The translations under genes were made by a program, and so were the position numbers. Of a stretch of 64,000 nucleotides of DNA, positions 26,141 to 58,033 are shown one piece after another. This stretch comes from Rothia nasimurium (GTDB taxonomy: Bacteria > Actinomycetota > Actinomycetes > Actinomycetales > Micrococcaceae). The stretch lies in the NCBI RefSeq assembly GCF_004569295.1, contig NZ_SPQC01000010.1:1-64000 (forward strand). Direction: 5' to 3'. The number at the start of each line of letters is the position of its first letter. The stretch's first letter is position 1. The notes under the pieces are model-generated. The model saw only the letters and a list, made by a program, of their open reading frames with translations, was not told the origin of the DNA and made no database searches.

Positions 26141-26190
26141 GTACCATGCCCTGCCCACTTTTAACCTTAAAAGCGGGCAGGGTGCGGTAC
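26141..26190 (-). terminator. Terminator after the 26207-26947 SDR gene
   Basis: A long interrupted hairpin pairs GTACC, CCCTGCCC and CTTTTAA with TTAAAAG, GGGCAGGG and GGTAC. It lies 17 bp past the SDR stop. Confidence 0.65.
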
Positions 26191-41964: not shown

Positions 41965-42031
41965 CGAGCGTGCGTCATATCGCTGAGCGTGCACCTATCA
42001 GCCGCACGCTCAGCGATATGACGCACGCTCG
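41965..42031. repeat. Palindromic repeat, copy 1 (28-bp perfect arms)
   Basis: Left arm 41965-41992, 11-nt loop, right arm 42004-42031, all pairs perfect. Each arm contains GAGCGTGC twice in direct order, so the element has two direct and two inverted copies of this octamer. A second copy lies at 45256-45322 and both are preceded by CTAAC. It resembles REP-type extragenic palindromes. Confidence 0.85.
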
Positions 42032-45255: not shown

Positions 45256-45322
45256 CGAGCGTGCATCATATCGCTGAGCGTGCACCAACCATGCGCACGC
45301 TCAGCGATTTGGTGCACGTTCG
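45256..45322. repeat. Palindromic repeat, copy 2
   Basis: Left arm 45256-45283 and right arm 45295-45322, 11-nt loop. The left arm differs from copy 1 by one base; the right arm has several changes that break pairing. The GAGCGTGC octamers are largely kept. The two copies bound the XRE-ImmA/NTPase segment. Confidence 0.8.
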
Positions 45323-54616: not shown

Positions 54617-54657
54617 CCTGACCCACACCGTCCGCAACCCTCGTGAAGGAAAGCTCC

Positions 54658-55827
54658 ATGCCGACCACGCACACACCCACGCCCGGCAACTACCAGCCAG
54701 CCACCCTGGGTGAAAAACTTATCCCCCGCAACTACACCCGCTGGGTCAAACAGACCGCCTGGGCCGTAGCCATCGCCAACATCGTGCTCATTATCTCCGG
54801 CGGCGTCGTCCGCCTGACCGGATCCGGCCTGGGCTGCGACGCCTGGCCCCGCTGCACCTCAGACGGCTCCTGGACCACCACCCCCGAAATGGGCATCCAC
54901 GGCATGGTCGAATTCGGCAACCGCCTACTGACCTTCGTGCTGGTCGCCGTTACCGTCATCGCCTTCCTGGCAGTGCTGCGGGTGGTGTTCCCTGAGCGAG
55001 TCACTTTGGGTCGCTTCATCTGGGGCCTCCTCGTGGGCAGTCGCCCCGAGAGCTACCGTGCTCAAGGGGTAGGCACCTGGCTGGAGTCGCGCGGCCTTGT
55101 CGCCCCCCGCTCCCGCTACTCTGACCTCTTCAACCTCACTCTGCTGCTGCTCTGGGGTATTCCGGTGCAGGCTGTCGTCGGTGGTATCTCGGTCTGGCTG
55201 CGCCTCAACCCCTGGATGATTACCGCCCACTACATGCTTTCAGCCCTGATGATCATGATTGCCGGTATCTACCTCAACCGCGTCTACCGCTACTTCGGAG
55301 GCACCGCTGCCCGCGAGGGGCTCGTCCCCGCCACCAACCCGGCGGCTCAGGGTGCGGACGCCGGCGCCCCCGCGTCCGCCCACCTCATGCGGGTGCTCGG
55401 TTGGGTCGGCGTAGTGCTGGTTGTTGCGCTGATGTTCATGGGGACTGTTACTACCGGTACCGGCCCGCATGCCGGTGACGCCGAGACCCACCGCCACGCT
55501 TTTAACCCGGTATGGGTGACCCGCCTGCACGGTTCTCTCGTGTGGATCTACTGCGCTTCGGTGCTGGGCTTCTTTGCCCTGTGGCGGTCAAAGGGGTGGG
55601 CCCCTATCTTTGGGGAGTCTTTGGCCTTTGTGCTGGTGGTGCTGGGCTACCAGGCCATCGTAGGCTACACCCAGTACTTCAACGGGCTGCCGATTTGGCT
55701 GGTGGAGATGCACCTGATTGGGTCGGGTGTGTTCGCGCTGGCGGCGTCTTCGCTGTTTGAGCGGCAGCTGGTGCTCTCATCCCCCGCTGCGCGCGAGAAG
55801 GCGGCGGAACGCGTCCGGACGGCGTAG
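54658..55827 (+). CDS. ctaA: Haem A synthase CtaA (COX15)
   Basis: Membrane enzyme oxidising haem O to haem A for cytochrome oxidase. 389 residues from ATG 54658, which has AAGGAAAG upstream; the frame is open from 54643. Eight helices. The first loop has the Cys pair in GLGCDAWPRC; haem ligand His residues are in HGMVEFGNR, ITAHYM, TRLHGSLVW and MHLIGSG. ctaB converges from the other side. Confidence 0.94.
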   Translation: MPTTHTPTPGNYQPATLGEKLIPRNYTRWVKQTAWAVAIANIVLIISGGVVRLTGSGLGCDAWPRCTSDGSWTTTPEMGIHGMVEFGNRLLTFVLVAVTVIAFLAVLRVVFPERVTLGRFIWGLLVGSRPESYRAQGVGTWLESRGLVAPRSRYSDLFNLTLLLLWGIPVQAVVGGISVWLRLNPWMITAHYMLSALMIMIAGIYLNRVYRYFGGTAAREGLVPATNPAAQGADAGAPASAHLMRVLGWVGVVLVVALMFMGTVTTGTGPHAGDAETHRHAFNPVWVTRLHGSLVWIYCASVLGFFALWRSKGWAPIFGESLAFVLVVLGYQAIVGYTQYFNGLPIWLVEMHLIGSGVFALAASSLFERQLVLSSPAAREKAAERVRTA

Positions 55828-55846
55828 CCTTCCTCCTCCGGTATGT

Positions 55847-55901
55847 ACCATCTAAATCAGAAAAACCCACCAACTAGGTGGGTTTTTCTGATTTAGATGG
55901 T
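55847..55901. terminator. Terminator palindrome, copy 1 (after ctaA)
   Basis: 25-bp perfect arms (55847-55871 and 55877-55901) around AACTA; arms contain AAAAACCCACC. It is a strong bidirectional terminator, almost identical to copy 2 (56985-57039), and the two enclose one gene. Confidence 0.9.
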
Positions 55902-56069
55902 CTTTTCCACAGGCTCGCGCCGACGCTTCATAGAGGCGTCATCACTGCACCAACTTTCTACCGTGTCAGGGCTCAATCCCCTGAATTTTCTCGCCCCGCC
56001 CGCCTTCAAGTTATCCACAGACTGCACTACCTCTAGCAAAAGTGAGACTGCATCAGTGAGTCTAGAGCC

Positions 56070-56969
56070 ATGTCAATGCATGAATACACCAACGCAGTCC
56101 GCACGGCCCGGCAGCTTCTGAACCAGGGCTACACCTACGACCAAATTAATCGAGACGTGAAAACCCAGAAACTCACACGCGTCAGAAAGGGTATCTACTG
56201 CCCAACAGCCTGGTGGAACTCCCTGAAGCCCTATGAGATCTACAGAGTCCAGATCGCCGCAGTACACCTGTCAGACCCATCTACCACTTTTTCGCACGCC
56301 GCTGCTGCTTGCCTGCACGGGTTAGCTCTAGCGAAAACCCCGCCTGCAGTCGATATCGTTGGCCCACCAGATTCACGCGGACGAGCTGCTGGAACCCGCA
56401 AACATTACACCTACAAACCGATAGAGGAGCACAGGACGCTCGTGGGCGGCTTGAGAGTGACGGGTTTGGTCCAGACGGTTGTAGATTGCGCGCGGTATCT
56501 TCCCGTAAACGAGGCAACCGTCATCGCAGATAGTGCCTTGAACCAAAAACTGGTGAGTGTAGAGGAACTCTCACACGAGCTTTCTCAGATAGTTGGGTGG
56601 GGTTCCCGCAAATGTCGAGGGGTTGCACTGGGTATGAGCCCCTATGCCGAAAGCCCGGGTGAAACCTTACTTCGTCTTATCTTGATTGATGCGGGTCTGC
56701 CAGAACCAGCCGAACAGGTCGAGGTAACCGTTAGCGGGCTACGTTTCAGGCTTGATTTGGCCTATCCTAATCAGATGGTTGCCCTTGAGTTTGATGGTGA
56801 GGTCAAGTACGAGAGCTTCGGTCCACGACAAGATTCTGAGTGGTCTGAGCGCCGTCGGGAGTCTCTTCTCCAAAATTCGGGGTGGACAGTCCGCCGGTAT
56901 CGATGGGTTGATCTTATGACGCGTCGGGCAGAAATCGTTGCCGAGATTCGCTACCTCCTTAACCGCTAG
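56070..56969 (+). CDS. AbiEi-like winged-helix plus DUF559 (PD-(D/E)XK-like) protein
   Basis: 299 residues. The N-terminal part (about 20-65: GYTYDQINRDVKTQKLTRVR, KGIYCP) is like the type IV antitoxin AbiEi N-terminal HTH. The C-terminal part (about 210-295) resembles DUF559/Vsr-type endonucleases: ESPGETLLRLILIDAGLPEP, RLDLAYPNQMVALEFDGEVK, where the acidic residues Asp and Glu-x-Asp match a PD-(D/E)XK core. No partner toxin is adjacent. The gene is inserted between convergent ctaA and ctaB and is bracketed by near-identical palindromes. Confidence 0.82.
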   Translation: MSMHEYTNAVRTARQLLNQGYTYDQINRDVKTQKLTRVRKGIYCPTAWWNSLKPYEIYRVQIAAVHLSDPSTTFSHAAAACLHGLALAKTPPAVDIVGPPDSRGRAAGTRKHYTYKPIEEHRTLVGGLRVTGLVQTVVDCARYLPVNEATVIADSALNQKLVSVEELSHELSQIVGWGSRKCRGVALGMSPYAESPGETLLRLILIDAGLPEPAEQVEVTVSGLRFRLDLAYPNQMVALEFDGEVKYESFGPRQDSEWSERRRESLLQNSGWTVRRYRWVDLMTRRAEIVAEIRYLLNR

Positions 56970-56984
56970 CGTCCGCCAGAAAAG

Positions 56985-57039
56985 ACCATTTAAATCAGAA
57001 AAACCCACCAACTAGGTGGGTTTTTCTGATTTAAATGGT
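56985..57039. terminator. Terminator palindrome, copy 2 (before ctaB end)
   Basis: 25-bp arms (56985-57009 and 57015-57039) around AACTA. It matches copy 1 except one base pair in the stem (C-G changed to T-A), so pairing is kept. It lies 10 bp beyond the ctaB stop. Confidence 0.9.
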
Positions 57040-57049
57040 ACCTACCTGT

Positions 57050-58033
57050 TTAGAGGGGGAGCACCGGGCCGCCCACGAAGGGGTCGACCGCCAGGGCAAT
57101 AAATAGCACAGTCAGGTAGGTAATGGAGCCGTGGAAGACCACCATAGCGGTTCGGCTGGTTGCCTGCTCCGCCAGGGCCAGGCGGTGCAGCTTGTGGCAG
57201 TGGTAGAGGAACCAGGCCCCAATCAGCACAGCGGACGCCGTGTACACCCAGCCAGCGCCCCCCAGGGGAACCAGCAGCAGGGAGCACATCACCATGGCCC
57301 AGCCGTACAGCACCACCTGCACCGACACGCTCTTAGCTGAGTCGGTCGCGCCCAGCATGGGAATGCCGGCGGCCCGGTAGTCCTCGGCGTACTTCATCGA
57401 CAGGGGCCAGTAGTGCGGGGGCGTCCAGAGGAAAATCACCATAAAGAGCACCACAGCTGCCCAAGAAATGGTGTTCTCTACAGCCGCCCAGGCGATAAAG
57501 ACCGGCATGCAGCCCGCCAGGCCGCCCCAGACGATGTTCTGCTTGGTGCGCTTCTTCAGCCACAGGGAGTAGAAGACAACGTAGAGGAAAATCGCGACGA
57601 CGCCGAGACCGGCAGCCAGCGGGTTCACCAGGAAGTAGAGGTACACGATTGAAACAACCGACAGCACCCAGGCAAAGATAAGGGCTTCCCGGTCGGTAAG
57701 CTCGCCGGTGACCAGCGGACGCTTCTCGGTGCGCTTCATCAGTCGATCAGCTTCGCGGTCGATATAGCAGTTGAAGGCACAGGACGCGCCGGCGGCAAGT
57801 GACCCGCCAATCATGGTGTGGAGCACCAGCCAGAGGTTGGGGAAGCCACCGGCGGCAAAAATCATGGTGGGCGCGGTGGTCACCAGAAGCAGCTCAATAA
57901 TTTGAGGCTTCGTGAGGTGAATGTAGGCCCTAATTTTGCGGCCCAGGGAGACGCGGCCGGGTGCAGGCGCAGCGGGGGTTTGCTGGCCTTCTTCGGTACG
58001 GTCGATCACGGTGTTGATGCCATGGCCCTTCAC
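57050..58033 (-). CDS. ctaB: Protohaem IX farnesyltransferase (haem O synthase) CtaB
   Basis: UbiA-type prenyltransferase making haem O from haem B. 327 residues from GTG 58033, with AAGGGAAG upstream; the frame is open further but reads poorly. Membrane protein with motif [15 protein letters not shown] (Asp-rich site) and a second Asp region [27 protein letters not shown] is characteristic. Works with CtaA. Confidence 0.94.

Follow-up and report, generated by a model that had tools for sequence, protein, structure and literature searches.

The evidence points to a previously undescribed partnership between a family of nuclease-like genes and mobile palindromes. In the window, the whole 64,000-nucleotide stretch of Rothia nasimurium DNA that was analysed, a gene encoding a protein that joins an AbiEi-like DNA-binding part to a Vsr/I-Bth0305I-like (homing-endonuclease/Vsr) nuclease domain lies between ctaA and ctaB and is bracketed by two copies of one long palindrome. 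The same anatomy recurs around most of the related genes examined, each nuclease lineage pairing with its own palindrome. In the cases checked the palindromes are dispersed through the genomes, and at orthologous sites they are present in some and absent from others. At one site cassettes (palindrome-gene-palindrome) and solo palindromes replace one another, and the gene occurs in both orientations between inverted units.

The ctaA-ctaB junction and its palindromic units

The nuclease-like gene is the sole ORF (299 amino acids) between the two palindromes and is placed between convergent neighbours. The features of the window are arranged as follows.

54643..55827, plus strand: ctaA, left neighbour
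55840..55908, plus strand: left copy of polar palindromic unit B, with outer tail GGTATGT, palindrome 55847-55901 and inner tail CTTTTCC (limits taken from 28 copies)
56070..56969, plus strand: nuclease-like gene, 299 amino acids
56088..56639, plus strand: AbiEi-like N-terminal part, residues 7-190
56652..56966, plus strand: Vsr/I-Bth0305I-like C-terminal nuclease domain, residues 195-299
56978..57046, minus strand: right copy of unit B, inverted, with inner tail AGAAAAG, palindrome 56985-57039 and outer tail ACCTACC
57050..58018, minus strand: ctaB, right neighbour, convergent
41965..42031, no strand assigned: solo palindrome of the nuclease cluster-12 family (CGAGCGTGC type), 94% identical over 67 nt to the L100 flank
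45256..45322, no strand assigned: second solo palindrome of the cluster-12 family (CGAGCGTGC type), 84% over 67 nt

Each of the two palindromes around the gene is perfect (25+5+25), and a single paired position separates them, C-G in one and T-A in the other, so that the near-identical 55-bp palindromes with one covarying pair described in the original prediction are present. The match between inner (GAAAAG) and outer (GTACC) flanks as inverted repeats is likewise seen as claimed, with outer tails GTACC/GGTAC and inner tails CTTTTC/GAAAAG, and alignment of the palindromes as an inverted pair extends to 68 nt at 91% identity. The two B units are inverted relative to each other with the CTTTTC tail facing the gene. 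Among 28 distinct B copies compared from the fetched loci, most form a polar unit of ~69 nt (GGTAGGT-palindrome-CTTTTCT) and some end in an ACCT-type tail on either side; beyond the palindrome, conservation fades at 7-9 nt. Both window hairpins match the consensus pattern of an intrinsic terminator, a G+C-rich stem followed by a T run. The proposal that the palindromes are one duplicated terminator did not hold, the pair instead being members of a family that occupies about 20 places of the window's genome (21 at first look). The two cluster-12 solos are located 3.3 kb apart, and no cluster-12 nuclease is found among the matches listed for the window's genome (7 of 8). A short palindrome at 26149-26182 resembles a cluster-8 nuclease flank (84% over 32 nt).

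The nuclease-domain residues Glu-198, Asp-229, Glu-240, Asp-242, and Lys-246 are invariant or nearly so, and PADLOC returns an AbiEi match for the gene. The Pfam models DUF559 and REase_MTES_1575 match 28 and 31 of 43 cluster representatives, respectively (E<=0.01); the match of PF18741 to the window protein falls below the cut-off of the model, and the ncbifam profiles gave no match to the three proteins searched. Median dN/dS values of 0.08-0.20 were obtained for 10 nuclease clusters, and purifying selection acts on the nuclease gene.

A ctaB match is present in 29 of 35 genomes of the genus, ten of them a close group that includes the window's genome (G000) and 19 more distant. Nuclease B with palindrome B occupies the ctaA-ctaB junction in G000, G002, G017, and G005, the B gene of G005 being flipped with its 3' end towards ctaA and the outer tails of the units still directed outwards (pieces on two contigs). 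A different nuclease, A, which is 51% identical to B and is accompanied by a different palindrome A, occupies the junction in G011, G013, and G026 with the gene in the opposite orientation to that of the window. In G020, G027, and G028 a single palindrome A is present with no gene. The first part of the G028 solo is like the left A copy of G011/G013 and its last part like their right copy, as would be the pattern of a recombinant or of a shared precursor. In the 19 more distant genomes the fetched locus has no nuclease hit and neither palindrome A nor B (by inspection of the loci that could be resolved, which leave out L080 and L075, the latter having no ctaA hit), and several of these loci carry ordinary unrelated hairpins. 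At L077 of Rothia aerolata (G016), a further pair of long palindromes, with GTACA-type repeats, lies in the 522-bp ctaA-ctaB gap, which gives no nuclease hit; by eye they resemble the palindromes beside R. aerolata nucleases.

A tree built from ctaB with its flank, in which some inner branches are poorly supported, requires at least six state changes at the junction among the ten close genomes. Presence of the gene at the junction varies, as had been anticipated, with the nuclease absent in three of the ten. The expectation that empty sites would hold one palindrome stood in part: each of the three gene-less junctions has one, but it is palindrome A and not the B of the window. A simple duplication of the host ctaA-ctaB terminator does not account for this, because the solo at these three junctions is the palindrome of nuclease A, which occupies the same site in three other genomes. 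The A and B states together with the dispersal of palindrome B rule out a single duplicated host terminator.

Paired flanks and dispersed solo palindromes

To score flank pairing, the 400 nt before each gene were aligned locally with the 400 nt after it and the best alignment was taken, for 107 nuclease paralogues from 100 Rothia-centred regions, chosen from the matches listed rather than covering every copy, and grouped into 44 clusters at 60% identity. A flank-pair score of at least 18 is found in 98 of the 107 genes (40 of the 44 clusters), compared with a maximum of 15.0 in 384 control pairs of upstream and downstream sequences from genes of different clusters. One of the 100 regions, L150, is from another family. 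The window's own gene lies outside the 107, and its orthologous locus in G002 scores 67.0, which against the control maximum excludes chance. That other genes of this kind generally lie between paired palindromes bears out this part of the original prediction. Ordinary genes of 200-400 amino acids in two 400-kb stretches reach 18 in only 4 of 325 cases, which also argues against chance pairing. Two of the four are copies of one transposase, which we take to be IS3-type, with its own inverted repeats and which serve as a positive control of the test; one lies by a duplicated tRNA-like stretch and one by a duplicated stretch.

The flank repeat is usually a long palindrome that differs in sequence from cluster to cluster. 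A flank palindrome scoring at least 18 is present in 33 of 44 clusters and in none of the other 11. Direct pairs predominate in 28 clusters and inverted pairs in 12, and the flanking copies thus are not fixed transposon ends. No flank pair is found within 400 nt in 4 of 44 clusters and 9 of 107 genes (L023, L029 plus copy, L038, L041, L042, L127, L135, L148, L149); L041 and L042 are a single gene split in two by contig ends, and the L038 pair lies just beyond 400 nt. For L107 (plus copy) and L100 the top direct score is due to a duplicated neighbour gene or tRNA.

Relatives of the nuclease occur in R. nasimurium, R. aerolata, R. amarae, Arthrobacter, Pseudarthrobacter, Cellulosimicrobium, Isoptericola, Sinomonas, Rhodococcus, and others. 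Among 79 wider loci, which include some Rothia loci already counted, the flank-pair score is at least 17 in 60, at least 20 in 54 and below 20 in 25. The figure of 60 of 79 is softer than that for Rothia since the wider control (99% at 25.5, maximum 52.0) is inflated by related loci. The flanking palindrome of Arthrobacter sp. SDTb3-6 occurs as the pair and at 5 further places, with no match in four other Arthrobacter genomes, and that of Isoptericola chiayiensis occurs as the pair and at 10 further places, with one clear match and otherwise weak ones in five related genomes.

Palindrome B is found in 12 of 35 genomes of the genus at up to ~26 places each; 10 genomes have palindrome A and 11 have that of cluster 3. 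These copies are almost confined to the close clade, G033, G004, and G023 having a few. In the two 400-kb stretches there are 18 and 20 palindromes scoring at least 18, of which 13 and 13 (26/38) match the flanks of nuclease genes in a library that includes the flanks of the G020 and G027 nucleases. The match rises to 7/8 and 6/7 (13/15) for palindromes of at least 22 and is 25/51 and 19/43 (44/94) for those of at least 14; no palindrome of the two stretches matches a control library taken ~1 kb further out. Leaving out palindromes beside a nuclease, 24 of 36 at the threshold of 18 still match. Nuclease genes number just 1 and 2 in the two stretches, so that most copies are solo. The majority of such strong palindromes behave like repeats specific to a lineage. 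Of 39 examined, 36 are extragenic, between codirectional (24), convergent (9), and divergent (3) gene pairs. Palindromes B and A are also present in genomes that have no matching nuclease at ctaA-ctaB; the enzyme is thus not needed to keep them, and this speaks against its driving their spread.

Solo palindromes are gained or lost cleanly at orthologous places, with a difference of 83 versus 5 bp at G020:229704, 82 versus 4 bp at G027:35753, and 71 bp at L028/L106, where the palindrome is not matched to any nuclease. One orthologous place holds two families, a B solo at G020:24171 and an A solo at G027:25166. Three further observations concern the solos. A palindrome of score 28 is common to G020:17711 (L306) and G027:17634 (L326) and matches no nuclease flank in the library. 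At L154 and L155, B palindromes ~1.1 kb apart lie on either side of an ordinary gene, presumably corA-like, adjoined by a presumably purA-like gene. At L224 (G023:C38) a run of N separates two identical palindromes, which hints that the repeats break assemblies.

The palindromes could be good bidirectional terminators between which homologous recombination swaps genes, the nuclease being a passenger. Solos between ordinary genes, B copies that also flank ordinary genes, the small number of solos between divergent genes (3/39) and the flipped B gene of G005, which recombination alone could produce, are all in keeping with this, but the pair frequencies (98/107 for nucleases, 4/325 for ordinary genes) and palindrome sequences that vary by lineage make it quite improbable. 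Dispersal with clean gain and loss would also be expected of MITE-like non-autonomous elements moved by an unrelated transposase with the nuclease genes as cargo. This is very improbable, as partner genes of one kind go with many unrelated families of palindromes, and a search for the Y1 family found no transposase match in the window's genome or in 31 of the 34 other genomes of the genus.

Sites with several states and a proposed mechanism

Cassettes are mostly at the same sites across relatives, and several sites exist in more than one state. The left flank of the L044 site adjoins a cluster-17 cassette in G005 and a cluster-2 cassette in G002, G011, G013, G017, G026, and G027. In G000 the same place holds a solo cluster-2 palindrome, with the sequences on both sides the same as at the G027 cassette, and solos are also found in G032 (cluster-2-like) and in G020 and G028 (cluster-17-type), which makes four states at this site. 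In G027 the right flank of the site lies ~3 kb from the cassette; in G005 this flank adjoins the cassette directly. At this right end (L134/L214) a cluster-2 cassette is present in G033 and nothing in G032. The difference of 1153 bp comprises both palindromes and the gene with ~15 bp outside each palindrome, leaving no palindrome in the empty allele, and in this one clean comparison there is no target-site duplication beyond 2 bp. G033 is the only candidate for movement of a cassette to a new junction, ~3 kb from the usual cluster-2 place, loss in G032 being equally possible. L134 and L214 mark a 3-kb segment with similar flanks at both ends and cluster-2 palindromes or cassettes at either.

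The L124 tRNA site carries cluster 16 in G028 and G026 and cluster 7 in six genomes, and is empty with no long palindrome in G005, where the flanks are 70-82% alike. At the L103 site G026 and G017 are without the nuclease and have kept the cluster-1 palindrome with other genes in between, the gene beside it being one that we assume to be heme-oxygenase-like. The automatic presence/absence search of the fetched loci returned 13 rows from 4 places, of which 3 rows were looked at. The L046 site shares its left flank alone with a cluster-6 site and was not counted as a shared site. At the ctaA-ctaB, L044, and L124 tRNA sites the palindrome family goes with the nuclease lineage and not with the site.

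A regulatory role for the palindromes, as operators and terminators through which the AbiEi-like part controls its own gene and other gene ends, has to be weighed against these states; the nuclease would then act elsewhere, for example in defence, and solos would arise by ordinary recombination. The N-terminal part has the AbiEi fold, AbiEi relatives are DNA-binding regulators, and the window hairpins score as terminators. Repeats within the palindrome arms, what several binding sites might be expected to give, are present in 14 of 44 clusters (p<=0.05 against shuffled arms, 60 shuffles each; for example GGGACCGC twice and CGAGCGTGC twice), with none significant in the other 30. However, regulation alone leaves unexplained a palindrome on each side of the gene, as well as the exact gain and loss of solos and the exchange of families at the same place, and this explanation is considered unlikely.

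A nuclease-palindrome partnership that works like a REPtron with an unrelated enzyme is somewhat favoured, the binding, cutting, and nuclease-driven spread being the inferred parts. Each nuclease lineage would have a private palindromic unit of ~55-70 bp with short tails, two copies bracketing the gene and further single copies lying extragenically as hairpins that could also look like terminators. The AbiEi-like part may bind the palindrome and the Vsr/I-Bth0305I-like domain may nick or cut there, perhaps on a hairpin or cruciform form of it. Repair of the lesion from a second copy would then spread the unit and, more rarely, the entire cassette with both palindromes into palindrome-bearing sites. 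Were the flanking copies to recombine with each other, the gene would be lost and a solo would remain; inverted copies would instead lead to inversion of the gene. The solo-A junctions and the flipped B gene of G005 agree with this.

Whether these genes form a previously undescribed selfish or domesticated class of elements in Actinomycetota, with dozens of AbiEi-Vsr-like lineages each owning and copying a private palindrome and homing as cassettes into places where such palindromes already lie, is evenly balanced in our judgement; if so, most long palindromes of the Rothia chromosome would be products of these enzymes. If the partnership is real, a family of enzymes with no relation to HUH transposases would have acquired a means of its own to possess and disseminate extragenic palindromes. 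The source of many long terminator-like hairpins of these Actinomycetota would be accounted for, the common but unassigned DUF559/AbiEi-like gene family would gain a role, and many natural enzyme-palindrome pairs would become available for direct tests of palindrome recognition and movement.

Comparison with known systems

The open-access literature (subscription papers being outside the scope) yielded no earlier report of a nuclease-palindrome partnership and no palindrome partner for DUF559 or REase_MTES_1575 proteins, whose Pfam models match most of the cluster representatives and cover the domain only. The Rothia cassettes differ from classical insertion sequences in being without fixed inverted ends, the orientations of the flank pairs given above ruling out ends of the IS type. 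The N-terminal fold and the PADLOC AbiEi match recall the AbiE type IV toxin-antitoxin systems, but in Rothia the AbiEi-like part is fused to a nuclease-like domain, and no adjacent AbiEii nucleotidyltransferase is present at the window locus, where the neighbours are ctaA and ctaB.

The REPtron, as outlined in PMC8266576, has the gene of a chromosomal DNA-processing enzyme amid palindromes of its own type that are also dispersed in the genome, and a conserved GTAG foot beside the palindrome. The Rothia nuclease gene similarly has same-type palindromes on both sides and the same palindromes dispersed extragenically. It differs in the enzyme, which is AbiEi plus Vsr-like and not a HUH transposase (TnpA-REP/RAYT), in longer palindrome arms of about 15-33 bp, in a lower copy number (some 10-26 places in each genome for families that were counted), and in the lack of a common GTAG foot. 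GTAG occurs within 12 nt of 12 of 87 palindrome copies, being absent in 27 of 33 clusters and beside the palindrome in all copies of two (B and 19). The Y1 HUH transposase model PF01797 has no match in G000 and 3 of the 35 genomes of the genus have one; RAYT-driven REPs are thus ruled out by the absence of a Y1 match in the window's genome.

I-Bth0305I is a free-standing homing endonuclease of the EDxHD, Vsr-like class. By fold the Rothia gene has a catalytic domain of the homing type and, as with homing endonuclease genes, it is present or absent at otherwise conserved sites. Unlike I-Bth0305I, the Rothia proteins have an AbiEi-like N-terminal part and family-specific palindromes, and the target-like sequence is intact on both sides of the gene.
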